The translations under genes were made by a program, and so were the position numbers. A stretch of 64,000 nucleotides of DNA from Halichondria panicea (lineage: Eukaryota; Porifera; Demospongiae; Suberitida; Halichondriidae): positions 4,526,042 through 4,590,041 of the forward strand of contig NC_087377.1 in assembly GCF_963675165.1 (NCBI RefSeq), written 5' to 3'. The notes under the pieces were generated by a model that made no database searches, had not been told where the DNA came from, and saw nothing but the letters and a program-made list of their open reading frames with translations. Below, piece by piece: positions 7,400 through 63,640 of the stretch. The first letter of the stretch is position 1; every line of letters begins with the position of its first letter.

Positions 7400-7643
7400 T
7401 CCCTCTTGTAGCCTCGAGACCAGCCGTTCGTTATCTGAAAGAACGCCTGGTCAAGTTCTAATGTAGCACTCGTTCTATGGTCCAGGAATTTCTTGGACCG
7501 GTAATTGCCCACACAAGGTGTATTACCCATGAATATCATTATAATGCTATAAAACGCTGGCTCAGCTAGACAAGTTGCACATTAGAACTTGACCAGGCGT
7601 TCTTTCAGATAACGAACGGCTGGTCTCGAGGCTATCCCTCTTG
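7400..7643. mobile_element. MULE-like MITE with 9-bp target duplication
   Basis: Element 7409-7634 (226 bp) begins TAGCCTCGAGACCAGCCG and ends CGGCTGGTCTCGAGGCTA. The terminal inverted repeats are about 55 bp and nearly perfect. It is bounded by the identical 9-mers TCCCTCTTG at 7400-7408 and 7635-7643. Long TIRs with 9-bp duplications are the usual signature of Mutator-like elements. There is no coding capacity, so it must be mobilised in trans. Confidence 0.88.
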
Positions 7644-9554: not shown

Positions 9555-12500
9555 GTGAGTATAGCCATTCCTGTTACTTGCCATAAAATTATGTCACAAA
9601 TGTACTAATGAAACCTCGAAAAAGGTATACACAGTGGAACCTCCGAATAGCGGACAAGTTTTTGCAGGAGGTTTTGTCCGCTTCAGAGTCATTAATTTTA
9701 ATCGATGGTATACTTATAAGGTTACTTTACTCCAAATGTGTTTGACAATAACAAGTAGAAGGGGGGTTAGTTAGAAAAAAGAAGATAGCGGTAGCGCAGC
9801 ACTGCCGCCCAGGGGGAGTGTACAGAAGGTTTTACTGTATTAACACTGTATTGACTTACTCAGCAGCCTGAAGTTGCTTCAAGTATGCAAGCATTGTATT
9901 TATGTACTAGAGTACCTGATCTAAACCTTATTTTGCAATACAATTATTATCAGTGTTATCTATAGACACTTGCTACTATCAAGAGTATATGATAGAGAAG
10001 AGAGTATCGAACGTAGGCATACTGTACATCAGATGTATGCGGAGAATAACGTGACTTCCTGTATCTGTTACAAGCTTGGAATTTGCACACTGACCAATCC
10101 AAGTGTGGGTGATGTAATCTATCAAGAAAGTAGATTACATCATCACCCACACTTGGATGGGTTGATAGATTACATCACCCACGCTTGGATTGGTCAGTGT
10201 GCAAATTCCAAGCTTGTGACAGATACAGGAAGTCACGTTACTCTCCGCATACATCTGATGTACAGTATGCCTACGTTCGATACTCTCTCTCTATCATATA
10301 CTCTTGCTACTATACAGACTATAGAGATTCAGCTTACTACAAGTTCAACAACTAATTCCAATACTGAACGAACTATATACACGTACATAAAATAGAATCA
10401 AATCAGACAGACAATTATCTCAGGCCGTTTCACAACTGATATAGGCCATAAAAAAAGGGTGCATTTTGCAGTCTATTCATTGTCATTGTGTAATTATGGT
10501 GACCTTTTTATTCGGGATTCATATTAGATACATAAAATGGATCAGGATGATAACACCGTTGCCATGGTTACTGCCTTGTTGTGTACATTAACTTGCTATT
10601 TACTTTAACCAAAGAACGCTGCCTCCAATAATCACTTTCATGGTTCAATCTTATAGTATCAAAAGAAAGCTCTTGTTCTTTATATCCGAATTCTTTCCTT
10701 TACAGTCAATATTCAAAACCGAAGTTACTTGAAAAAACTGGATGAGTTGATGGCCGACAAAACTACTACGATTGAGCTCCACTACCTCAATATGCACTTC
10801 ATTGGTCCTTCGGGTGTTGGCAAAACGACCACTCGACAACGGCTTGTTCGATCAATTGCTAACCTGTCTTTACTGCCTGAAGATCAAAGGAAACGTTGCA
10901 GTACATTGCTTGCCGAGTGTGAACAAGTATATTGGCTTTTGTAGACAAATCTGGAACAAAGCTTGAATTCAAAGCAACTTCAAATCTGGAGGAAGAAACA
11001 CAGTTCATCTTCTCTTACCTTATGTCCTGTGAACCTATTGAAGATAGCACTGTCAGTAATAAAGTTATTAATCCGCCTGAGGAACACCCCACCCTCCCTT
11101 CAAAAGAAACAACTGACCTAGAGAAGCAACCTCTTAAGAGTAATGAAGCAGCTACTGCACAAAGCACTGTCTCACCAACAACTGAGCCTTCACCAGACCA
11201 TAACAAATTCGTGAATGTAGTACTGTAGATGTTGGAAAGGTTGTCTCGAGACTCCGGAGTATTGTGGGTTCAGGAGAGTACACTAAAGAGCTGCTGAACA
11301 AAGTCCTACTCAATATGGTCGATATAGGTGGGCAGCCTGGATTCGTGGAAATGTTTCCATTCCTAAGCAAAGGGGCAGGGATTTTCCTGGTATTCTTTCG
11401 ACTGGACAAAGACCTCGATGACATGTGTCAAGTATCCTACGAACGAGGAAAAGACAAAATCACACCATACGATTCAACGTACACAAGCAGAGAAACGCTC
11501 TCTCAAATACTCTCAGCTATCAGCCACCATGCCAAAATTGAATCAGATATTGACAGAGAGCTGTGCAGTAAACTGGGAAATCTAGGCTCCGTTAAGCCTG
11601 TTGCTACTCTCCTAGGTACCTTCAAAGATGAAATTGCAATGCAAATCAAGGTCAATCTTTCTTCTGTACGAGAAATGTTGTGCCGCGAGAAAAGCTACCA
11701 ACAGCGATGACAGTACGACCCCTGAAAAGATAAATCATAGCAGCAGGGAGCACGAACAAAAGAAAGCGATTCGACTGAATTTGACCCCCAAGAAGAGTGA
11801 TGAGCAGGCGAACGTCAGTACAAATGACATGGCTGCCATTCAGCAAACAGTCAGCCAACACCTCAACTCAGATGCTTTCAAGAAAGATCGTTTAGAGCAA
11901 ATGTTGGCAGAGAAAAACGAAACCGTGAGCACGATTACCAGCAAGTTTGAAAACTTACTTTCTAATCCAAAAGACAAGAAGTTCATAGCAGTCGATAACT
12001 ATGAAGGCACTGATTCTGATATGGAACCTCTTCGTGAACATCTTCATGGTTTGTTCAGTAGCTATTTCAAAGATGCCAAACTTCGAATTCGCCCACAACA
12101 GCTTTTGTTCGGAGTTGTGCTGAGAAAAGAGTTTGACATTGCGTCTATGGAAGACTGCATTCGTATCGGTACCGAGGGGTTAAAGATGAGCAAGCCTAGG
12201 AGGTTCGATTCACCGTTTGGTACCTGGATCGGTATACGTTGGAGCTTTGATCTATCATCCAGAGATCAAGGATAAAGATGGTTGGTTTGGGAACTTTGTC
12301 ATTTGCAACCCCCAAGTCGTATTCAACAGTCTCAGTATTCTCGTTGTCAAGCCGCTACTGGAGCTCCATTCTGAAGAGAGCAGTATTCAGTTTAAGGAAG
12401 CTGAGAGAAGGAATTGGATGCTCAAAGGACAATTCTCAATGGAAACAATGACTCGATGCCATTTGGAGGAAAACCTGGACGTGAAGAAACACCAGTTGAT

Positions 12501-15500: not shown

Positions 15501-17711
15501 TTTAACTCACTGAGCAGCTCTTAATGCACATTGGCTCGTATTACAAGTCATGATCAGGCCCAATTGAGTATATACACAATCCGCAGTATTGGCAATGTTA
15601 TTATGCCTCGGTGCGCATGCGCAAGCGAGGTATACGGTAGTACAGTGTGTTTGTGTGTCTGTGTGTGTGTGTGTGTAGACCGCTACAGCTGCTCAAGGAT
15701 GAATCAAGTGCAAGTAAGAGTTTCTATAGGCTAGGCTTCTAGTCATGTTTACTTGGATTTTAATTCGTGGATTTGCAAAATAATGCTTCGTTCTCGAGTT
15801 ATGCCTAGTTTTGCTTACTTGGAATGCCATTGCAGCCTTTTCAGAAGAGCACGTAGCCAAACTTGTTTACCGAGTGTTACTACTCTACTTAGTAGTTAGC
15901 TCTGTACTAGAACGCTAGCTATTGGTAGCTGCAAGAGTGAGGATGAGAGCTGCAAGGCTCTGCTGATGTAGACTCGCCAGTCAGCCCTTGAGAAAGGGAC
16001 TGGTCAAACTCCGTGTAGAGACTCGTGTAACGTTTGCCACGATATTTGTGGCAACTAACCGCATGCGGTTACCGCAAGATCAATGATAGTGACGTTTCAC
16101 TAGAAAACTCTACGTATCACATGCAGTATACTGACGTCACGAAAACCGCAGCCACTTAAAATATTTTCTGATATGCTGATTGTGCAATACAAGTCTCAAC
16201 ACGGAGTTTGACCAGTCTACTGTTCGCCTGCAACAATGACGGCATGCGAGTCTACTGCTGATGGCAGCCATTAATTTTAGAATTGAACTTTTGGCATCGA
16301 TCGTTTTTAACAACAATCATGGTCGATCATTACCCATTCTTTGAGTTTGCATGCAGCAAAATAATTATTGCAAAAATGTTCATCAGCTATTAGTAGCTTT
16401 ATGTTATGTAGCTTTGGCATCTCCACCGAGGCATCAGCACCTGCAGTGCTTTCATTATGTACATGATTGTAATGCAGCGACTTAATTCCTGATTAATCAA
16501 TCATGAGATATAGCTACATTATACCACACTTACGTCACCACAAATTGATCTCATTGGTCAACAGCTGTAGGATATATATAGAATATTAGCATACAGCCCC
16601 AGGCATGCACAGTTTTTCAAGTTGTTTTTTAGTTTTTTCATTTGTTCAAGAAAGTAAGCAAAGAGAAAAGAGCCATGCTTGACGGTACTAAGACTCAAAG
16701 CGACGGCAGAAACACGGAAGGTGCTCTCCAACAAGATGGCTAAGCTTCCATGGGTCCATGGGCGCGGTTTAGATACATTTTATCCAAGAAGAGCTTGCAA
16801 CTCCAGTAAGGGACGTCGAATGGTCAACGCTTGGACCAAGGAAGCTCTTGAGCATCTGTAGGAGTCAACATGTTGCTCAACTAGCTCTTTGACAGCTGCA
16901 AAATTCGGCATAGTCTCGTTCTTTTTTGCAGTCTGCATCGTGATTGAATTGTTGCTAGGGGGAGGTCCTTTTATAGTGCTGCGGTCACGTGGTATAAGTC
17001 AGATATGCCACATCTACTTGGAGGATATGCACCCTATATATCCTCCTCTACCGTGGTTACATACCCCTCGGCTCTGCCTCGGAGTAACCACGGTAGCGGA
17101 GGATATATGGGTGCATATCCTCCTCTTAGGTGTGGTATATCCTATACTTGTACTTTTAAATAACAGTTAACCTTGAAATTCTCCTGCTTCAATTTCATGA
17201 AACTCCCCTGGCCAACTCACGCTATTCCGGCTCTGTTACTTATATATAGCTAGATGTTTACTGCACAAAAATCGCCCTCAAATGTGTGGCCATGCACTAC
17301 TGGCTGCCCCAAACTACGGCCAGATATATACAACGTTTTGGGTGCGGTTTGGCAGAATTAGAGAGCATACATATTATGATTCACTATTACTTTGGGATAG
17401 ATCCGTCATTATATAGATTTGAGTTAAGGTCTCTTTTTAGCCGCGGCTGTTTTCTGAAATTCGATCAGTCCGAGAGTCTATAATAATACTGCACCCATGC
17501 ATGCACACACACCCATACACACATACTATGTGTTCAGGCCATCAAGAGGGACTATCAGAATGAGTCTGGTGTGTGTTTCACTAAACTACTGGAGCAATGG
17601 TTGACACGATCCACCCCCGCCCCCACACTAGGAGCACTCATCCATGCACTCAAGTCTCCTGTTATTAGTCGTGGAGACTTTGCCAAAGAAATAGAGCATA
17701 AACTAACCTGA
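7876..17711 (+). CDS. Ankyrin / Roc-GTPase / COR / Ig-like / double Death-domain gene (frame-damaged)
   Basis: Exons: 7876-7907 (ATG in the only phase that fits), 8034-8341, 8466-8669, 8803-9009, 9071-9172, 9232-9399, 9498-9554, 10706-13140, 13212-13450, 13539-13660, 14699-14854, perhaps 14954-15006, 15117-15229 and 17538-17711 (stop TGA). Order: ankyrin repeats, Ser/Thr linker, P-loop GTPase (GPSGVGKTT, DIGGQPGF), COR-like region, Ig-like segment, two Death domains. ROCO GTPases couple a Roc-COR module to binding and signalling domains; Death domains recruit partners in apoptotic or inflammatory signalling. It is predicted cytosolic: no signal peptide or TM is seen. The GTPase/COR exon needs several frame changes to read through and the exon at 14954 does not splice in phase, so the present copy is probably inactive. 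The role is inferred from domains only. Confidence 0.75.
9632..9838. mobile_element. Mariner/pogo-like MITE (CAGTGGAACC end)
   Basis: Starts CAGTGGAACCTCCG and ends GGTTTTACTG followed by TA, in the intron after exon 9498-9554. The related element at 25235-25482 lies in a different intron of the paralogous gene, so the insertions are independent. CAGT..ACTG ends next to TA are typical of Tc1/mariner-superfamily MITEs. Confidence 0.55.
9969..10313. mobile_element. Long near-perfect palindrome flanked by an 11-bp direct repeat
   Basis: Two arms of about 150 bp are nearly perfect inverse copies. Matching blocks include AGTATCGAACGTAGGCATAC, ATCAGATGTATGCGGAGA, CAAGCTTGGAATTTGCACAC and GGGTGATGTAATCTATCAA, with a short asymmetric centre. 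CTTGCTACTAT occurs at 9969-9979 and again at 10303-10313, consistent with a target duplication of 9-11 bp. It lies in the intron just upstream of the GTPase exon. Apparent ORFs inside are artefacts of the palindrome. Confidence 0.8.
10706..13140 (+). pseudogene. Large Roc-GTPase/COR exon with multiple frameshifts
   Basis: The exon enters in frame from 9554 and encodes the P-loop GPSGVGKTTTRQRL at about 10805-10850. The frame breaks at about 10927 (a doubled TA; stop at 10942-10944), about 11200-11220, about 11690 (A-run), about 12197, about 12230 (TA again) and about 12960. Between breaks the protein stays recognisable: a switch/Walker-B motif DIGGQPGF, then TLLGTFKD where a G4 N/TKxD motif would be expected, then COR-like blocks (GALIYHPEI, VICNPQVVFNSL, LISHVDCYEIR, IIAFDCYCGKHEDGS). 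The long exons of the neighbouring genes show no such breaks, so sequencing error is a poor explanation. Low stop density between breaks suggests recent loss. Confidence 0.75.
13212..13450 (+). CDS. Ig-like segment exon of the Roc-COR-Death gene
   Basis: Reads SLGDDVTLLALPF and LSFKWRKR, then, after one more frame change near 13340, GHFKGIIRCEISKNQTPYF. This is the Val/Trp/Cys pattern of an immunoglobulin-like beta sandwich. It sits between the COR region and the first Death domain. An Ig-like fold in a cytosolic ROCO-type protein is unusual, so the assignment is tentative. The acceptor is TACAG at 13211 and the donor GTAAGA at 13451. Confidence 0.5.
13539..14854 (+). CDS. First Death domain (exons 13539-13660 and 14699-14854)
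   Basis: The first exon encodes VIKEIRSDWYSLAIELDI, the helix 1-2 motif of Death domains with its key Trp. The phase-0 partner exon encodes EKDYRWVEPCFEAMLTHWVK, then SWSALVRALES and GDIATSIK, matching helices 4-6. The intron holds the palindromic element at 14049-14497. Death domains assemble into helical oligomers with other Death-fold proteins. Confidence 0.8.
13661..14698. other. Intron within Death domain 1, with foldback element 14049-14497
   Basis: The arms of the foldback share CTACC(A/G)CCACAATTAAC, a TTTTTGTTAG-type block (inverse: CTAACAAAAAC), AGTCTGCACAA(C/G)GTCAA and AATGAATCCCTG in inverse orientation. The centre contains a second small inverse pair, GCAGGTG and CACCTGC. No target duplication was resolved. 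The rest of the intron shows nothing recognisable. Confidence 0.6.
15117..17711 (+). CDS. Second Death domain and C-terminus (exons 15117-15229 and 17538-17711)
   Basis: Exon 15117-15229 reads AAWEVRGTWRPLGVQLGV then NEGTLD, the first half of a Death domain. Exon 17538-17711 reads FTKLLEQWLTRS, TLGALIHALKSP and RGDFAKEIEHKLT, followed by TGA. It resembles Death domain 1 in exon layout and sequence, so the two likely arose by internal duplication. The 2.3-kb intron between its halves was inflated by two repeats (15602-16457 and 16507-17149). Confidence 0.8.
15602..16457 (+). mobile_element. Dispersed element 'CCTCGGTG', copy 1, interrupted by a MULE-like MITE
   Basis: Begins TGCCTCGGTGCGCATGCGCA and GCGAGGTATACGG, has a GT-rich stretch, and ends CCACCGAGGCATCAGCACC plus a small GCACC..GGTGC hairpin. 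The end motifs TGCCTCGGTG and CACCGAGGCA are inverse. Copies lie at 26335-26830 and 33920-34697, in the same orientation. This copy is split at 15969-16254 by another element. No coding region is seen. Confidence 0.75.
15960..16263. mobile_element. MULE-like MITE nested in the 'CCTCGGTG' repeat, 9-bp duplication
   Basis: Element 15969-16254 begins TAGACTCGCCAGTCAG and ends GGCATGCGAGTCTA. Subterminal arms GACTGGTCAAACTCCGTGT and ACACGGAGTTTGACCAGTC are inverse. It is bounded by CTGCTGATG at 15960-15968 and 16255-16263. The copy of the host repeat at 33920-34697 shows the unoccupied site as a single CTGCTGATG just after 34503, proving insertion. Confidence 0.9.
16507..17149. mobile_element. 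Non-autonomous TIR/foldback element, copy 2
   Basis: Same plan as 4978-5878. The left end has TATACCACACTTACGTCACC and TTGATCTCATTGG. At right is a long hairpin (about 16990-17145) with arms GGAGGATATGCACCC and GGGTGCATATCCTCC, ACCGTGGTTAC and GTAACCACGGT, and loop CCTCGGCTCTGCCTCGG. It ends GGTATATCCTATACTT. Arm sequences differ from copy 1 but changed on both sides together, so pairing is kept. Confidence 0.65.
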
Positions 17712-20181: not shown

Positions 20182-20245
20182 GTCAACCAATAGTCGGGCG
20201 GTGACCGTTGCTCAACGGTAGAGGGCAGCGGTGCTAGTCAACCAA
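20182..20245. mobile_element. 46-bp micro-element with 9-bp target duplication
   Basis: Element 20191-20236 begins TAGTCGGGCGGTG and ends GCAGCGGTGCTA. It contains the hairpin ACCGTTG..CAACGGT and little else. It is bounded by identical 9-mers GTCAACCAA at 20182-20190 and 20237-20245. Its end shares the CTCTACCGTTG motif with the 346-bp element at 34157-34502, marking it as a minimal relative. Confidence 0.8.
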
Positions 20246-27389: not shown

Positions 27390-28555
27390 TATAATTGTAA
27401 ACTATGAATGTTTGTGTTATAATTCTTGCATGCTGGAGATACTTGTCTTAAAGTTTGGTGATTTTTCCTAGCCTCCTTCGCAGGCCTTCCTTTTTCAGTT
27501 TTAAACAATGTTAACACCATACAGGAATAATTGGAGGAGCAAAGAAAGAAAAAAGGAAGCCTCTTGGACGGTTCGTTCTTTCTTTCTTTGTTCCTCCAAT
27601 TCTTACCGTATTTTATCTTATTGACCGTGTGACAAAGAACAGAAAAAGGAGAGGCTGTGAAGGAGGCTAGATTTTTCCATGCATCGTCGGCATACCATGT
27701 ACCACGCAGATGAAACTGTTTAATGTCATCCAAGGAGTATATACATGCATGGCTCAGGTTCCTAATGAGAGGGATTGAGGCAAGGGCGTATACATTGGCA
27801 TTGCAAGTATAGGTCCCCTTGCGTGGTTCCTTTTTGTGAGTACAGCACATCCCCATTAAGTAACATCATGACATAAATTATATGCATGCATGTGTTGATG
27901 AGAACTGTAGCACAGTCTCCTGATGTTGTGCAGGGCAGTTCGTTGGTTCATGGCTTGCGTCTATCAACAAAGGTTTGGACGGTGCATGCATGTGGACTGC
28001 TGCTTTTGTACCAGCGATCTGGCTAGCATAGTTGTATGGATCCAACAGTTTCTTGCATATAATTATCTTTCCTTGATAATGCGCGCGCCTTGCTGTGTCC
28101 CCTATATATGGGTCGAACACCCGGGTTCTTGTTGCATGAGGGCAATCAGTCTGCTGGCCATTATAGTGGTGTTGTAGTTTCTGTGTCAATTAACCAGGAC
28201 AGTACAAAGGCGTTTTCCATTTGAGGCAAAGGACCAGCATTATAGGTCGAGGATGCTGATTTGAAGGCGGTGTACAGAGCCTTCTCCATGCGAGTGAGTC
28301 GAGTCCTGTGAAGGCCCAGCGGAGCCACTTGTTTTTAGAGCAGCGGATCTTATCATGGCTGCGTCCAGTGATTCGGAATGAATGTCGATGTGGGTTTTCA
28401 TTATAATGATGGTGTTAGGGGGGGTATACTGCTTTGCCTGGAGGGTGTTTTTCAATCAAACTTTTTTCCTTCATCAACTTGATCATCCAAGTGTAGAACT
28501 CCTCCGTTGCTTTGATCGGAGAGTAGGTGAAGTGCAGCCTTTGTGATTACATAAT
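27390..28555 (-). pseudogene. Degenerate retroelement reverse transcriptase, interrupted by a MITE
   Basis: Reading the minus strand from about 28555 downward in several frames: an EEFYTWMIKLMKE segment, then KHPPGKAVYPP, LDAAMIRSAALKTSGSAGPS, RLCTAFKSAS-like, QIAGTKAAVH, LLIDAS, YALASIPLIRNLS and WYADDAWK. The order and the YADD catalytic motif identify a reverse transcriptase of a type common in cnidarian and sponge genomes. Frames are broken and stops occur. A 202-bp MITE (27469-27670) interrupts it just after the YADD motif. The retroelement class (DIRS-like or other) cannot be fixed from this piece. Confidence 0.7.
27460..27679. mobile_element. MULE-like MITE inside the RT pseudogene, 9-bp duplication
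   Basis: Element 27469-27670 starts TAGCCTCCTTCGCAGGCC and ends GTGAAGGAGGCTA. The arms pair over about 80 bp, including the purine/pyrimidine blocks GGAGGAGCAAAGAAAG and CTTTCTTTGTTCCTCC. It is bounded by GATTTTTCC at 27460-27468 and 27671-27679. Its ends match those of the micro-element at 63579-63631. Confidence 0.88.
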
Positions 28556-28557
28556 TA

Positions 28558-29113
28558 TCCGACTAGAAAAACATTTGCAATGTGAAAAATTGCTAGGATT
28601 GGCCAGGGGAACCACAAAAAAGCATGGAAACAAGAAATCAGACGAGAGCATAACTCCAATCCGTTACAACGTCAATCACATGTACTGGTAGTTTCCCCAT
28701 GTTTTCCCAGCCAATATGCCACACAATTTTTACTGGTGGAGTGATGACTAATCCCTATATATTTATATTATCCATTTTGGAATGTGCGGCACATAATCAT
28801 GATGATTTGTGATGAATTGATGTTCCTAATACATGCAGTGTTGAGCACAGGTATACACACAGTCCATCCATGCGTAGTAACATGCACGGACCGTACTGCA
28901 TGGTGACCTGCATGGAAATGATGTGGTGGATGGAAGCTGGTAGATGGATCTGGAACACTGTCTATTATTTAATATACTATGTATTGTACATGTTCATGAC
29001 GTTGTAACGGATTGGAGTTATGCTCTCGTCTGATTTCTTGTTTCCACGCTTTTTTGTGGTTCCCCTGGCCAATCCTAGCAATTTTTCACATTGCAAATGT
29101 TTTTCTAGTCGGA
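28558..29113. mobile_element. Foldback element with ~115-bp terminal inverted repeats
   Basis: Left arm 28558-28675 starts TCCGACTAGAAAAACATTTG; right arm 28996-29113 ends CAAATGTTTTTCTAGTCGGA. The arms match almost base for base (for example GGATTGGCCAGGGGAACCAC and its inverse), implying recent insertion or gene conversion. The spacer of about 320 bp has no ORF. No target duplication was recognised. Confidence 0.8.
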
Positions 29114-29959
29114 TTCCCTTTCTTTTTCAGTACAGTTTACGTATCATGACATGCATAAGTGGAAAGTCTAGAGGCAGTACAGAAGTTCAAGAAGAGAAGA
29201 CAGGACTAATCAGATATCTTCTCGAATATCTCTGGACTAATAATTAGCTATAATAATTATAGTAATGAGTAATATTGCTTGATATGTTGAATTTGTGAAT
29301 CAGTATTAATTAAATGACAGCCATTAAGAGCATGATATCTAGCCAGTGCATGTAGCATGCCTGTCAGAGAAAGGGAGCTAGAGCTGAACAGTGTGAAGAA
29401 AAGCAACACCTCAGGCTCTGGAAAAGCACTGCACTGATTTTAGGACGGTTTATTAGCCACGCCTATCTATTACTAATTGGCCACAACGCAATTGCTGAGT
29501 CATTAAAGATGGCGGAATTGTCTAGGTAAGAGAAATAGAGACTGAGAGGTCATCTGCCTCGTGGAAGCAATCGCAAATCTGAAGAAGCGCTTTTTAATCC
29601 AGGTTGTAGTCGTTTGGAAACCCTGTGCAGAATGTCCTGGAGATGGCTGTACTTGGAGCAAATGCTGGGCAAGAAACTTACTTACTTACTTAGTCAGTCA
29701 GACAAAGAGCGGTGAAATGTAGAAATAGTACAATTTTTAAAATGACAATATTCATTTATTAAAATGGTCATGGATTATGAAATGAGAGATACAAAGAGAG
29801 AAAAGGCTAAATAAACTATCTGTCTAGCCAGTTTCTTGATGTGGCCTTTCCCTGCAGAGATAGAACAGTTTGAACATGAGTCAAAATAATTGAAATATTG
29901 CTAAACACGGGCAAACCCACTGCCAATCCTATGTAAAACCTACTGGTTTTACTAATATT

Positions 29960-31312: not shown

Positions 31313-34300
31313 GTAAGTAAAATGCTCTACATGTCAATGCTAAACATTTTTTACCAGTTGAAATAGACACGTCTAATGTGTTTGTACCGTATTAGTATCC
31401 GTATAAATTATACTGTAACAAAATACGTAACTAGAATGACACTGTACAGGCCTGATTACATTTTTATTCACATGCTGTCCTTAATTTATGTGAGTTTTTT
31501 GTCGATCTAAGCAAAAACTCGCAATTCGCAATTCGCGCCCAATCTGAGTAGTCAAGAATTAGAGAGACTGAAGAGTTTCAGACTACCGATAGCTCTATAA
31601 TTATAATTACACTGTGCACAAAATAATGTCAATTGCACGTGCAATTGATGATGTTTAATTGCGCAAGCTTGCACATCTATAAGCAACAAACATAATTTTT
31701 AAATTGTGAGTAACGAGTGTAAGTGAAGAGGTTCAATCCGCTAATTTTGATTTGTTGCGTAAACAATTAAAGCTTTCCATCTCTGTACTTAACTTAGTCT
31801 CTATGCTGCTACGTAGGATATTTTATTACAAGCTTTTACATTCATTCGGCAATAATTTTGCGCACAGTGTAGACTACTTTTCTAACTCAAGCTTCTTTCC
31901 CTCACTCAGTCTATGAAAACAGGTTTCCATCGAATAGATTTGGTTCCTATACTCTTGCAACCTGAACAAATTATCTTGGTACGTGTCTCATGCATGCATG
32001 GATCAGCCCCTCCTTCTCAGGAGGGGGCTGATCCATGAGACCGCTAGGTACGTGCATGGTGATAGAGCATTTGATTACAAGTGCATTTTCTATAAGTTTC
32101 TTTCTGAAATCAAGTCAATTGTTGTTCACTACTCTTTAATGTTGGGGCCGTAATTTATCATTTCTCGGCTTTGGACCATGCATGCTTTTATGGTGTGCTA
32201 AGATAAATGCGATTCTAATAGCCGTATATAGTTTTTGCATGGCCTTTGCTTTTCTATTTCTCTTTTTACCCCTATTTTAATTATGTTGGTACGTTGATAG
32301 GTTTTAGGAGTGCATGTGAATCTATTGCACTTTAATTTTAGGTTTCTTTCCGTGTGAATCTTTAATCAAGTCAATCGTTTACTACTCTTAAAATGCGAGT
32401 GCATGCATTTTCTAAGTTTCTTTCCGTATAGTATTAATTGGCCTTTGCTTAATTCAGGTTTCTGTTTGTTCCTGTACTCTTTTTATTTTATTTTATAGGT
32501 GATAGGTTTTAAGAGTGCACTTTAATCTGGATTATAAGTGTATTTTCTAAGTTTCTTTCCGTGTGAATCTTTAATCAAGTCAATCGTTCATTACTCAGGG
32601 GTATTTAGCCAACGTCACATACATTGAAAAGTATTATATTAAACATAGTAATTGCACAGTCATGTTGTTTTGTCATAGTATCTTTAAATGAAAATAAAGA
32701 TCATGTGACCATCATGTGACCAATTAACATGAAATTTCCTTGTAAAAAAAAGTATTTGTTCCAGCTTACTAATAGTTAGATCCTGGAATCCTAATGTACA
32801 TATCATATAGACTGATGAAACCCTGCTGCGCAAAAGCAGATTCATATAGGTAATCATGGTCTACACAAACAACATGCTAAGATTTACTTGAATTGTCCCT
32901 GAGATCTCCTCCTAACTTTATTGTTTGGCTGCACTCTGTCTTGCGCAGCAGGAAACAAGTTCTCTACTATCTAGTTAAGGCCTTTAATAGCTACTAGGTA
33001 GCCTACAACAAATCCATTTTCAGGGTTTTACTCGATCAAATAGCTACGTCAACTTCAGTAAGTTAAACCATAGATAATAGAGCACAGAAATCAGGCTTCT
33101 ATTGGTTCCTATACTCTATAATTATACGTGATATGTTATAGGAGTGCTCTTGAATCTAGATTAAAAGTGCATTTCCTAAGTTTCTTTCTGTGTGAATCAA
33201 TCCTTGTTGGTACTTGATAGGCACTTGAATCCAGATTACATGCATGCAAGTGCATTTTCTAAGTTTTCCATGTTAATCTGAATCAAGTTGTTTCAATGAT
33301 ACTCTTCAGTGCGAGTGCATTTTCTTCTGTATATAATTATAGGTATTTGCTTAAATCAGGTTTCTGTTTGATAGAGTAACGGTATAGGTTCCTACTCTTT
33401 AATTAACCAAACTATGTTGGTTTGTAAAAGGTGTTACGAGCAAGTGCTTGTTATACCATACTGAGTGGGTGCATGGTGTGATTGATGCATGGAGTAATCT
33501 ATTTCTAGGAACGTGAGAGATGCTTATGGAATGCATGTAGCCTGACTACACCCTAATTTGGTAGTGTGTGTGAAAATACAGTGTGCATGTACATGCAGAA
33601 CTATAGTAAGGAAAAATTAAGTTTGAAATACCACTATTAATAGTGTAGGTATTGCATAGACGGTTTTCTGGTACAGTTTTCCTTTTGACATCCGACCTTT
33701 ATTATCAAACGAAGACTTTTGTAAGTTATGAGCTACATAATCAATTAGACACTGTTTAGGAAGTTTCTACATGATTTAAAAGCCCAAAGGCTAGTTGTAT
33801 AGTATCCCCGAATGTAGTGTAGCCCTGAGGGCTTCTAAATTATGTGCAAACTTCCTATAAACAGGAACATGCATTTTACATAGCAACCATGATTTGATTT
33901 TCTAAGTGAATTACATGATTATGCTTCGGTGCGCATGCGCAAGCGAGGTATACGGTAGTGTGTTTGTGTGTCTGTGTGTGTGTCTGTGTAGACTGCTACA
34001 GCTGCTCAAGGATGAATCAAGTGCAAGTAAGAGTTTCTATAGGCTTCTAGTCATGTTTTCTTGGATTTTAATTCGTCGTACTTAGTAGTTAGCTCTGCGC
34101 TAGAATGCTAGCTATTGGTAGCTGCAAGAGTGAGAAGAGAACTGCAAGGCTCTGCTTAGTCGGGCGCTGCCGCCCTCTACCGTTGCCCGGAAGGAGGTCG
34201 GGAATCAAGCCTATCCACAGTTTTGTTCTGTTGTTGGAATTCCAACAATTCCACCAGCTCCAATCAGATTGCAGTATCTCTCAAGGGGATTGATCACACC

Positions 34301-37300
34301 CACTCAACTGTACCACGTGTGAATTTTGCACACGTTGGATTGACTGAGAGGCGAGGCCAACACCCACTTTAATTCATCGCTATTGGTTAGCACCCACATA
34401 GAATGAATGATATTCATGATACTATTGCGTAACAGGCCAGAACAAAACTGTGGATAGGCTTGATTCCCGACCTCCTTCAAGGAGGGCGGCGACGCTCGAC
34501 TAGGCTCTGCTGATGGCCATTAATTTTAGACTTGAACTTTTGGCATCGATCGTTTTTAACAACAATCATGATCGATCATTACCCACTCTTTAAGTTTGCA
34601 TGCAGTAAAATAATTATTGCAAAAATAAGCTATTAGTAGCTTTATGTTATGTAGCTTTGGCATCTCCACCGAGGCATCAGCACCTTCGGTGCTTTAATTC
34701 ATTTTAAAAGTAAGTACATGATTTTCTAAGTTGAATAGAACACTACCTTTAGCCAATCAGATTGCAGTATTTATGGATTATTGTCAGTTAGACCATGGAT
34801 AAGAGGGATTAGAAACGAAAATGTTTGCGTGAAACACTCCGCGTTATTGGGTGTGGCTAAAACTACAAAGGATTATATTTATAGTCAGCATTCTCATTAC
34901 CTGTCTTGCTGCCATACTATGTGCTGTACATAGAAATGGTGAAATTGATGTTGATTATTCTAAAAAGTAAAAAGTAAAGAGAATCTAGCTCTAAAAGGTC
35001 GACTAAGCAACGCAGCCACTATTACTAAATGTGACAGGCTCTGGGAAAACCAAACTATTGGAGCAAAATTTATAATATTGAGCTACAGCTAAATTTATGC
35101 CTACAGTATAAAATCTCAAATAAAATGTTATTGGTGTATACATTTTAGCCTGCTCCAATAGTCTGGTTTTCCCAGAGCCTGTCACAAATAAATAAATGCT
35201 ATACAAGAAGGAATAGCTCTTACTATGAAGTCGTGGGAGGTCAAGACCCGTGGTGTCTCAAAAAGTATACTTGAAGGACTATATACTTTATGAACAGTAC
35301 AGCTTATCCATAGCATGAAAAGAATCCTATATAATTATAGCACTTAGATACATAATAACCAATTGCAAGTCAAGCAATGTCCTTTGCTGTTTCGGCTTCA
35401 CAAGCAGGGAAAGAGAAAAGTTAACATGGAGTATTTCAAGCTAAACTCAATAAAAAGTATAAAAACAAAGTAAAGACAACGGACTTAGAGCTTGTCAGTG
35501 GTGTAAACTTACTTCTCTAGAGTACCTCCTAGATCCTGAGTGATCGCTAGTTGATAAGAGAGCTAGAAACAGTTGAAATACAACCTTAGTATGGTAAAAA
35601 CTAAAATATTCGCAAGCGCGAAATCATATCGCGGAGTGTTTCACCCGTTGACACAGGGCGGCTTGGTCGTTTCCAATCCTTTTTCTGTTCTATCTATGGT
35701 TTAGGAAGTTTCTACATGATTTAGAAGCCCAAAGGGCTGGTTGTAGTATCCCGAACGCAGTGAGGGTTCTACTAGCCCTGAGGACTTCTAAATCATGTGG
35801 AAACTTCCTAAATAGTGTCTAAGCCCCTGATATAAATTATGCTTTTTTTCACCCATTATTCTATTCAGTCTTTAATTCTTGAAAATGTGCCTATTATTCT
35901 CATAAAAAATCAGATTATTCTCATAAAAGTGCAAAAAAATGCGACATATTAATTATAGACAAAATTAAAACGTAGACATAAACACAGCACATGTACACAT
36001 GCAACTGACACATGACATAATTAATATAATCATGATTTTCAGTGTTATCTTGCTGACTTGAACTGATCTAACTTCAGCATTTTTTGATGAAAACGTCTTT
36101 ATGCAAAACTTAATGTAATGATCTTTACCAAAAATGGACATTAATTTGTGCCCAATTATTTTAAGACTAGCTAAAATAAAATTATTCCGAGCATAATTTA
36201 TCAGGGCCTAGTCTAAGCATTTAGATCATAGAGCAACCATGAGTATTTAGCCACTCCTGTTCTTATCTAATCTTTGCTACATAATTTTCTAAGTGAAGTA
36301 GCTAAGTACATGATTTTCTAAGTTGGATAGAACACTTCCTTTAGCCAATCAGATTGCATGGCAAACATGATCTAACTCTTGTTTAGTTACCCCCTCAGGT
36401 ATCGACGAGTGTGTTACTTGCATGGACAACTGCGATGAAAATGACTGTGTTGTTGGTGAGTGGGTGTAGGTGTTTTTGGCAGGGGACCATAATTATAACT
36501 GTATGTACAGCGCATATATATAGAATGCCCTTTTTATCTTGGTTGGTTAAAATTATTATTCTCATAAAAAATGATCATAAAAAATCCGATTTTTTCCCAA
36601 AAAATGTAACATAATTATATTGACCACTACCTGCAACTCTTCGAATTAATGAGGTTGTAAACTTAATGAATATACAACCTCTTAGTCTAAAGCATCGATT
36701 ATGATTATGTATTATGACACAATCAAAACTGCTATAGCTATATACCATGTACTGTACTATGTTATACAGTAGACTCTCGTTAATCCGGTCACCCTTGGGA
36801 CCATGCAGCTTGGCCGGAATAGTGAGGTGGCTGCAGCTCAGGAAATAGCCGCGGCTTAAAAACGACCTTACCTCGAATCTAATGACTACTTTTGCGGTTC
36901 TTGTCTCGAGGATAATGTAGGATAATAAATTATTCTCTTCTCTATTTAAGTGTAATCCAATTTTATTTGGTAAACCACACCCAAAACGTCATATCCGGCC
37001 GTAATACACGTATAAATTACATTGAAAACCTTGTTTGGGACAGCCAGCACTGGCCGGTAAACAGAATAGCGAGTGGCCGTACTTCAGGGTGAGTTTTGTG
37101 CAGTAAACATATAGCTAGCATTCCGTGCCAAGCCAAATGGCCGGTATATCGAGGTGGCTGTACTTCAGAGAGCCGGAATAGCGAGAGTCTACTGTAATGC
37201 ATTAACCTAAATAATAAATTATTATTGTGACTTGTGCTCTCTCTCCTTTATTAATAGGCTCCGTATCAGTCGACAGAGTGGAGTTCTTCTACACCTATGG

Positions 37301-43300: not shown

Positions 43301-46300
43301 CTACAACATCAATCCAGCCTCATTTTTTGGTAGTGATCCCCGAAATTTGTCTGCTTTCCAAGATCATCGTCTTTCAAACCTTCCCATGAGCGAGATGATT
43401 GCATGTTCCAGCCTTGCTAGAGGATCACGTTATCATAATGAGGTGTATTATATCGGTCAATCCATGGATACCACACAATTGGCACGTGCAGAATGTACAA
43501 GCACTATAAACAATGATACAGTGTATAGTGACATCATCAACGAAACAACACTAAGGGATGGATGCCCTTGCAACTTGGCTCAGGCTTCAAGAGACTTTGC
43601 TTATAGTTTCATTGATATGTTTGCTTTGACATTGGATCCTGTGTATGACAGGCAGTTCTGTGTGACTCCAAGATTTCTCCAGACAGACACCATTCTCTGT
43701 TGCTATGGGTGAGAGAATTACGTATGTATCAGTGTATGGCTTGTGCCTTTATATATTACGCTCAACCTTTTATTTGTTCTCCCCACAGGCTAAATGACGG
43801 TGGGGCACTCAACAATGCTAGTGGTATCAGTGGAGTGGTGGCGTACAGTCCTAGCTTCTTCCCAAGAGAGTTCCTTGATAACGATTACAACTTACGTCGC
43901 AAATGCAGCATAGGAGGTGAAGTTGACACACTGTACAGGACTAGAAGACCTCCAGTGACCTGTGCCATTTATCAGCCTCCAAGAAGAAGTGAGTGTTGAT
44001 GGCACTTGTGAAATTTTATAGCTACTTATCACATAATTATTAGGAATTATCTTAATTTCCACGTTGTCAACATGGGCTAAACTCTAGGTGTGATATAAGT
44101 ATACATGGCCCCTCAAGTTCATCCGCCTCATATCACATATTAAACATGCCCAGTTCATAAGATCATGGCAGGCAGGAGTACAAAGATGTTTAGAAATTCG
44201 TTTCTCATTATTTAGTACGCGTAAAATGTCATTACCATCGCGGTTTGTCTTTGACACCACAGAAACAGAACACTTGTGATAAAACTTCAATATCCTGGAC
44301 AAAGTTGCTGCTACCAGAATATAGACAATTTAATAACAATGAATGTGTGAAAAAATTATACCTTCACCAACAAGTTTGCTTGAGTTCTATCGCTAAGCGA
44401 AAAGGCACCCAAAAACCTGATAAATTAAGTTTGGGTACTTATGTAAACTATATGAAATCTAACCTCGATCCTAGGCCGCATTTCCTCGAAGAGTGAGGGA
44501 AGGCTAGTGAAGGAGGCTTTACGAAATCATGCATACTTGTGTTAGCTAAGCTATTCAGGAGGGTTATGTCAGAGTTCCAAACCTTAGCCGACAACGATTG
44601 GTCTTTCGATTGTCCACTATAAAAAAATCTTGCTGTTTACCACATACCCACGTCACACAATCTTTGGTTGCTATGGAGAGCTTTTTGGATTGCTTTATAT
44701 CATTCTTTTACCTAGACAATGGTATCAGTAGTATTTCTTTGTTACGCAGAACCTATAACTACTTTTCATTTCACAGAAACTGGGCGATAACCCAACTTGC
44801 TTTGATACTCGACAGGAGTAAGACATTGTAGTAAACAGAAGTATACGGCAATCCCATAACATATCTATTATCTGCAGATTAAACTGATCTTTAACTAACC
44901 ATTAAGCAACAGTACATGTTTTCTGTCAGTATATATCGTGCAGCTACAAAGCAGTATCTATTCTGCATGTAAATGTTCTGTACACATACATGCACACAAA
45001 ACACACACACACACGCCAACACACATGCACACACACAGCCTTCTGTACTGGTGATCCTCATCTCACTAATCTTGATGGAACTAAGTTCACATTCAACGGT
45101 TGGGGAGAGTACATTTTACTGGAATTGGAAACAAATGACACCACATTCTGGGTGCAAGCTCGTATGCAACCACTCGTAAATTCTAGCGCTACTGAACTAG
45201 GTGGTTTTGCTTTTGCTATGAGCAGGGACACTCCTGTAGAAGTACGTAAGAAGAATTGAATATGTGGTTTGAAATGTTTGGGAATTAAGATTGCCAGTTA
45301 TTTTAATCATTATCCCTCTAACAGATTCGCCTGAATGCAACTAGACAGCTTGAGATTCTAATCAGTGGAGACGATGTAACAGACCAATTAGTCAACGTAA
45401 GCTCTTCTATATCCACTGACTTCTACTCTGTGTCTCGAAGCAGTTCCAATTCCATTCTGGCCACGTTCCCGAATGGAATGGGGTTAATGGTGACTCTCTC
45501 GAGCATGCTCACCTTCACAGTTATCATCCCTGATGCCTTCCGTGGATTAACTAGAGGTATATATACATGACGTTCATAGCTTTTTGCACGCGAATAAGAG
45601 CACTTCAGGAGCTTTCTTTTGAACACCTTGCGCTTTAAACTTAATGTGTTGTGAACTTAGTCATTTGTTAGAGGTATATGTATGTACTATATAGGGTACG
45701 TATTTTCAAGCTTAAAATTACGTAGATACATTTGTACAGAGTGATGCATGACCTCATATTAAAGACCCTGCAATTTTATGGGTTTTTGTAATTTTATAAG
45801 TGTTGGTAAAATTTGCTATGTGATACAAATGCTGGTATAATTATGTGTAAAGTGTCCCTCTGGTTATTGATTAATGGTTGATCCTCTTGCAGGAATGGTT
45901 GGAAATTACAACGGTGATGTCACTGATGATGTCAGATTCCGAAACGGAACTTTAGTGCCTCTTTCTGAATTTTCCTTTCGTATACTACACCAAGTGGGAC
46001 TATCATGTGAGCTATATTAACCCTGAGTACACTGCTACTGCCAAATGGCCTGTGTGTGCTGACATCATTATAGATTGTAATATATATACATACAGTCTCG
46101 TACGTATACATTGTACGTATAATTGTTGCATTTTGAGTGGGCAGATCAAAGGAAACACTGTGCCAATATCTGCCATATGGCACAGGTCAAGCCTTGAACT
46201 GTGCCACTATCTAGATACTGGCATAGTATGGCTGAAGTTACCTAAAGCCCACCCTCTGCCCAGTAACCTGAAACGGTCCCTTTTATAGTATAACACTGTT

Positions 46301-63569: not shown

Positions 63570-63640
63570 GCTTATGCTTAGCCTCAATCCCAGGCCGCAC
63601 TTCACTTAGGGAAGGCCGGTGAAGGAGGCTAGCTTATGCT
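63570..63640. mobile_element. 53-bp micro-element with perfect 9-bp duplication
   Basis: Element 63579-63631 begins TAGCCTCAATCCCAGGCCGC and ends GGTGAAGGAGGCTA. It is bounded by GCTTATGCT at 63570-63578 and 63632-63640. Its right end is the inverse of the left end of the 202-bp element 27469-27670 (TAGCCTCCTTC), and it is the sister of 44460-44519. Confidence 0.85.

Follow-up and report, generated by a model that had tools for sequence, protein, structure and literature searches.

Elements of 42–60 bp in the genome of the sponge Halichondria panicea are very probably non-autonomous cut-and-paste DNA transposons (MITEs) that have been reduced to their two ends. In a typical element, TAGCCTCGATCCCAGGCC... 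at the left and ...GGCC..GTGAAGGAGGCTA at the right are joined by a short middle. Judged by sequence comparison, the short form itself appears to have moved, with full-length relatives demonstrated for forms of 52 and 56 bp.

Short elements and larger MITEs in the window

Within the 64,000-nucleotide stretch of DNA analysed here (the window), all three of the tiny elements named in the initial annotation were found (Table 1), and the direct 9-mers said to flank them are exact at 20191 and 63579 and agree at 8/9 positions at 44460. The termini are TAGCCTC/GAGGCTA for 63579–63631, which has an exact GCTTATGCT duplication, and TAACCTC/GAGGCTT for 44460–44519, between TATGAAATC and TACGAAATC. Family A, which includes both, carries the terminal inverted repeats of a MITE, consisting of a 7-bp outer TAGCCTC plus an inner GGCC; the two ends of 20191–20236 match each other at only 4/8 bases. 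The elements at 44460 and 63579 had been described as sisters. Their alignment agrees in 44 of 60 columns and their middles differ, which rules out sisterhood and makes them relatives only; the nearest relative of 44460 among the matches listed lies at C1:8005640 (L002), and agrees with it in 53/60 columns. The proposal that the 46-bp element is mobile at its present size was not borne out either. A genome search for its relatives, which skips very common words, found itself alone; there is therefore no sign that it moved at 46 bp, and it may be the relic of a larger element.

Table 1. Short elements, their target duplications and larger MITEs in the window
Feature	Position in window	Strand	Remarks
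226-bp TAGCCTCGAGACC MITE	7409..7634	+	target-site duplication TCCCTCTTG
286-bp TAGACTCG MITE	15969..16254	+	target-site duplication CTGCTGATG; lies in a copy of the host repeat of 34157
46-bp element with exact GTCAACCAA flanks	20191..20236	+	end parts resemble family B
201-bp TAG..CTA MITE	27469..27669	+	target-site duplication GATTTTTCC; ends resemble the family A right end
346-bp family B MITE	34157..34502	+	target-site duplication GGCTCTGCT
Left target duplication of 44460 element	44451..44459	.	TATGAAATC; 8/9 against right copy
Micro-MITE, 60 bp, family A, TAACCTCGATCCTAGGCCGC...GTGAAGGAGGCTT	44460..44519	+	
Right target duplication of 44460 element	44520..44528	.	TACGAAATC
Left target duplication of 63579 element	63570..63578	.	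GCTTATGCT
Micro-MITE, 53 bp, family A	63579..63631	+	five paralogous empty sites
Right target duplication of 63579 element	63632..63640	.	GCTTATGCT

A scan of the window for elements of 30–600 bp with an exact 9-bp duplication and TAG..CTA ends agreeing at ≥3/8 positions returned six (7409–7634, 15969–16254, 20191–20236, 27469–27669, 34157–34502 and 63579–63631), versus two in total over 20 first-order Markov windows, or 0.1 per shuffled window. The 44460 element falls outside this count because its duplication has one mismatch. When the ends were required to agree at ≥5/8 positions, five elements appeared with duplications of 9 bp, three with 6 bp and none with 7, 8, 10 or 11 bp; sorted by terminal trinucleotide under this stricter rule, TAG accounts for five in the window and every other trinucleotide for at most one.

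MITEs of 200–350 bp had also been noted in the window as MULE-like. Larger MITEs do exist there, the second half of the description being unproven, as the readable MULE ends differ and Merlin-type domains are present too. Relatives of 34157–34502 number 196 candidates in the genome, of which 40 places were scored; ten copies were read, and seven carry an exact 9-bp duplication, two (with identical flanks) agree at 8/9, and one has none flush with its ends. The 108-bp right arm of the 27469 MITE (27562–27669) belongs to a large family: a first look across the genome gave 652 candidates, and the 40 places scored are 92–100 % identical, mostly without the window's left half. Beyond the window, a 777-bp TAGACTCG MITE (701–1477 of L004) has its own exact 9-bp duplication and lies 24 bp from a 54-bp micro-element (1502–1555). 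The window additionally holds two large hairpins, 9999–10288 and 28557–29114, with arms of 127 and 129 bp that are 98 and 97 % complementary; TAG ends were checked for at both hairpins and are absent. Some open frames contain what we take to be ankyrin-like repeats.

Target duplications across the genome

The 131-Mb assembly (39 contigs) was searched with the end pattern CCTCNATCCNAGGCCG-N(10-40)-GAGGC, using the same pattern reversed as a control. The result, 181 + 197, is 378 matches, with nested and palindromic sites counted more than once; the reversed control gave 0. The listed places came from about the first 100 of the 378, and those read are not a random sample: they comprise 30 loci, some of which are one and the same site, 20 picked places (mostly ending GAAGGAGGC) and 20 further places, together with loci from a separate search and sites met incidentally. 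All listed places read lie before C3:2,361,735, except two beyond. The DNA read contains 67 distinct sites, from which ten with a common host left flank were dropped; 55 of the remaining 57 had a right end in range and were scored, mostly on contigs C1–C3.

The genome-wide check for 9-bp flanks that the initial annotation had called for bears out the expectation, with a duplication, exact or with one mismatch, present at 37 of the 55 sites versus 0.28 % for swapped flanks. This figure comprises 27 exact 9-bp duplications, three exact 10-bp duplications and seven with one mismatch, leaving 18 sites with none, at some of which (L049, L092) the duplication looks by eye to be shifted or damaged. 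Swapping left flanks between sites (16,186 trials) yielded 0.24 % exact and 0.04 % one-mismatch duplications. For elements of ≤66 bp the corresponding counts are 23/47 exact and 7/47 with one mismatch, and L011, at 42 bp, and L039, at 43 bp, are the shortest sites with an exact duplication of their own. Duplications of constant length, as MITEs produce, are accordingly the commoner state (37/55, with 18/55 lacking one), and, where flanks were read, the copies are many, dispersed and set in unrelated surroundings.

It is highly improbable that the short elements have spread mainly as passengers inside larger repeats, rather than by movement of their own. Such carriage is indeed true of L007/L008, of the 49-bp copies L028/L036/L040/L041/L043, of a 36-bp element in group-1 MULEs and of a 59-bp element that forms part of a tandem array with a 239-bp unit. 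Against this as the main route, sites with a shared left flank were removed before the count, and once the three shared-host pairs still inside the 55 sites (L007/L008, L059/L091 and L100/L102) are discounted, 24 distinct exact 9-mers remain. Of these 9-mers, 21 have a purine in first position (P = 0.0003) and 18 a pyrimidine in last position (P = 0.02), or 39/48 when pooled (P = 1.5e-5); the target preference is mild and symmetric. The 59-bp micro-element recurs every 239 bp in its tandem repeat (L017, L105; C1:3148183 and C1:17375407–17376177).

Precise empty sites, a further mark of MITEs, are present for two insertions in eight empty copies. The joined flanks of the 63579 element match straight across the junction at nine other genome places, and the five read (L111–L115) contain GCTTATGCT once with no insert, followed by ACG, 0–4 more bases and then the host CATTG. 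The element of L007/L008, 52 bp long, has seven such matches across the junction, and the three read (L116–L118) have ATACTGCGC once and no insert. Amongst the larger MITEs, 15969–16254 (CTGCTGATG) and 34157–34502 (GGCTCTGCT) were inserted 4 bp apart in different copies of a single host repeat, so that each shows the other's site unoccupied.

Movement in the short form

Three pairs of sites carry short forms that are identical or one base apart. L026 and L038 have the same 52-bp sequence and different duplications (GAACTGACC vs GAAATCTGA), and their flanks agree at 20 and 15 positions out of 60. L055 and L057 differ once in 56 bp, and L020 and L106 once in 54 bp, the duplications again differing within each pair. 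The initial annotation had argued from 44460 and 63579 that the minimal form moved rather than shrinking in place; the conclusion holds through these three pairs, not through the pair on which it was based.

Genome searches broaden this picture. With L026 as the query (the element extended by 6 bp of native flank at either end), all 40 scored places, from 174 candidates, match the element whole, apart from one without the first 3 bases. Identities range from 85 to 100 %, with eight places, the query itself included, at ≥95 %; the matches include length variants of about 49–65 bp. The 56-bp L057 drew 285 candidates; of the 40 places scored, 27 span it completely or to within 3 bases, and ten, itself included, do so at ≥95 %. 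Three of the 27, all on C7 and equal in identity, may stem from a single copied site. Length variants over both searches run from about 49 to 66 bp. Amongst the 52- and 56-bp matches, distinct duplications are known for L026, L038, L055 and L057. At the other 13 L057 places only the 40-bp left arm matched, at 98–100 %; from these alignments the L057-type short form is read as the fusion of a 40-bp left arm with a right end of 16 bp, and this form would then have multiplied. Nearly all L026 matches end within a few bases of the element termini, and the L057 matches nearly all stop there too, which further argues against carriage within larger repeats.

The same evidence bears on the possibility that the short elements are deletion relics, i.e. 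full-size insertions that lost their interior in place, so that the short forms never moved. This account would explain why middles mostly differ in the read set, why the palindromes of L029, L096 and L119/L120 that extend into the flank look like in-place repair, and why 20191–20236 found itself alone. It is nevertheless an unlikely explanation for the group, given three site pairs with short forms identical or one base apart, different duplications and unrelated flanks, and given the 40/40 and 27/40 places that match the 52- and 56-bp forms whole or nearly so. For loss in place to have produced these forms, deletion would have had to hit one pair of breakpoints again and again.

Remodelling and the 36-bp form

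As most middles differ within the read set, short forms seem to have originated on many occasions. At L096, L029 and L119/L120 a left-end palindrome runs into 4–11 nt of flank, in inverted form. At L029 and L096, each bounded by a direct 9-bp duplication that is intact, it then switches to the right end. The pattern at these four sites fits hairpin-primed repair in place, indicating that remodelling after insertion also occurs; L119 and L120, whose flanks are alike, may represent one event. An 11-nt inverted copy of the flank is seen at two unrelated sites, L096 and L119/L120.

The shortest form, TAGCCTCTATCCCAGGCCGGCCTTGAATCGAGGCTA, is 36 bp long and consists of two 18-bp ends with nothing between, flanked by GGAAGTTGC. 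It is carried by the group-1 MULE copies L059 and L061, and by L091 and L098 as judged from 11-nt flanks, with one base changed at L064. Because the flanks are common to the copies, the 36-bp form is one insertion that was copied with its host. The initial annotation had proposed that such minimal elements set a lower bound on what the transposase needs. At single loci, perfect duplications do reach down to 42–43 bp; full-length relatives at many sites are demonstrated for 52 and 56 bp, and the 36-bp form is a single insertion multiplied with its host. L064 (reverse strand, near 2912; C17:4152032 region) harbours three GGAAGTTGC copies, separated by one element of 36 bp and another of 57 bp; the latter, the second element, occupies precisely the first one's target duplication.

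Proposed mechanism

Under the MITE reading, a DDE transposase supplied in trans would recognise about 18–26 bp at each end, excise the element and insert it with a 9-bp stagger. New short forms would arise from longer relatives by internal deletion or hairpin-primed repair, some of them then multiplying. Several findings count against this reading: the 18/55 sites without a duplication, the signs of in-place rearrangement at L029, L096 and L119/L120, the length variants among the full-length matches, and the absence of an autonomous TAG..CTA element from the loci read. In addition, the persistence length of DNA is about 150 bp, as stated in the available part of one paper (PMC3464196), and the reading does not account for the joining of both ends of a single 36–60-bp rod, since such lengths are far below this value. 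No helical period was seen in 28 element lengths (P about 0.5; low power).

If one rod is too stiff, the elements might instead have moved as single-stranded hairpins, or by pairing the ends of two copies. Six of seven folded micro-elements form one near-full-length hairpin (calculated with RNA parameters; 20191–20236 does so partly), and left/left palindromic forms occur at 8/55 sites. This route is unlikely: its single-stranded intermediate is hypothetical, and inverted ends bounded by a clean 9-bp duplication are what staggered DDE integration usually leaves behind. A bolder proposal is that the reproducing unit has shrunk to two 18–26-bp ends back to back, which at 42–60 bp would be too short and stiff to loop as a duplex and would have to move via single-stranded hairpins, strong bending or cross-copy pairing. 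We regard this as doubtful. Staggered integration of MITEs reduced to two ends is the reading retained in what follows.

Transposase candidates

The genome contains 31 matches to PF10551 (MULE transposase domain) and 24 to PF12762 (Merlin-type DDE domain). A MULE transposase with matching terminal repeats had been suggested as the partner. Among the 31 PF10551 matches, those with readable ends have different termini: ...CACAGCG for group 1, GGGATTG for group 3 and ACAAGTGG at C2:979312. L076 has a GGGATTG end with an apparent 10-bp duplication. No TAG..CTA ends, and no autonomous element bearing them, were found among the MULE loci read, a partial search in which several loci yielded no ends at all.

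Three candidates were rejected individually. The group-3 MULE at L065 is preceded by TAGTTGGG, a stretch present in L065 alone; the part common to L065 and L067 starts at GGGATTG and excludes it. The TAGCCTC of the group-1 MULE is the inserted 36-bp element with its GGAAGTTGC flanks, the MULE's own end being ...CACAGCG. The 809-aa MULE at C2:979312 ends in ACAAGTGG, not TAG..CTA. This last element, which resembles the Rehavkus type, has long tandem-repeat arms and an exact 9-bp duplication, GTGTTTTAG, so MULEs making 9-bp duplications do exist in this genome. Its locus is covered by L069 with L088/L089 (C2:972500–986500), and a second copy (L087; C8:3132500–3142000) is 98 % identical over 7.3 kb.

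The MULE label is unproven, because no partner with matching ends was found among the loci read and both MULE and Merlin domains are present. Our first guess at the partner is a MULE and our second a Merlin. Merlin duplications are 8–9 bp long, and the mixture of 9-bp with some 10-bp duplications suits a MULE somewhat better. It falls within the 8–10 bp given for MULEs in the available text of one report (PMC5225508).

Comparison with known systems

The micro-elements are MITEs whose length reaches or falls below the customary 50-bp limit, and annotation geared to longer elements could miss them. They provide natural mutants for defining the minimal substrate of a eukaryotic transposase, with dozens of 52- and 56-bp relatives as well as single units of 42–43 bp, and the synapsis of two ends so close together becomes a directly testable question. 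A literature search, limited to open-licence papers, yielded no recognisable account of these elements, which is weak evidence.

Amongst known systems, Merlin (IS1016/IS1595-type) MITEs share duplications of 8–9 bp, and PF12762 is present in the genome, whereas exact 10-bp duplications occur here too. MULE MITEs are alike in their inverted ends, absence of coding capacity and 8–10-bp duplications, and MULE domains are encoded in the genome; in contrast, no MULE with TAG..CTA ends occurs among the loci read, and the elements described here span 36–66 bp compared with the 50–800 bp typical of MITEs in the accessible portion of a published account (PMC12550479).

Very short DNA elements do have precedents, in introners and in the IESs of Paramecium. 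Introner families, as described in part of one paper (PMC9860276), have median lengths of 30–654 nt, and some possess target-site duplications of 3–9 bp and terminal inverted repeats, resembling the present elements as very short mobile DNA. Paramecium IESs are at least 26 bp long, with 93 % below 150 bp and a 10-bp size period, in the available sections of their description (PMC3464196); no such period appears in the 28 lengths considered here. The same sections present IESs as unique-copy, decayed elements cut from the somatic genome, whereas those of Halichondria are multi-copy. What is unusual in the sponge is a dispersed group of 42–60-bp elements with clean 9-bp duplications, empty sites and many close relatives.
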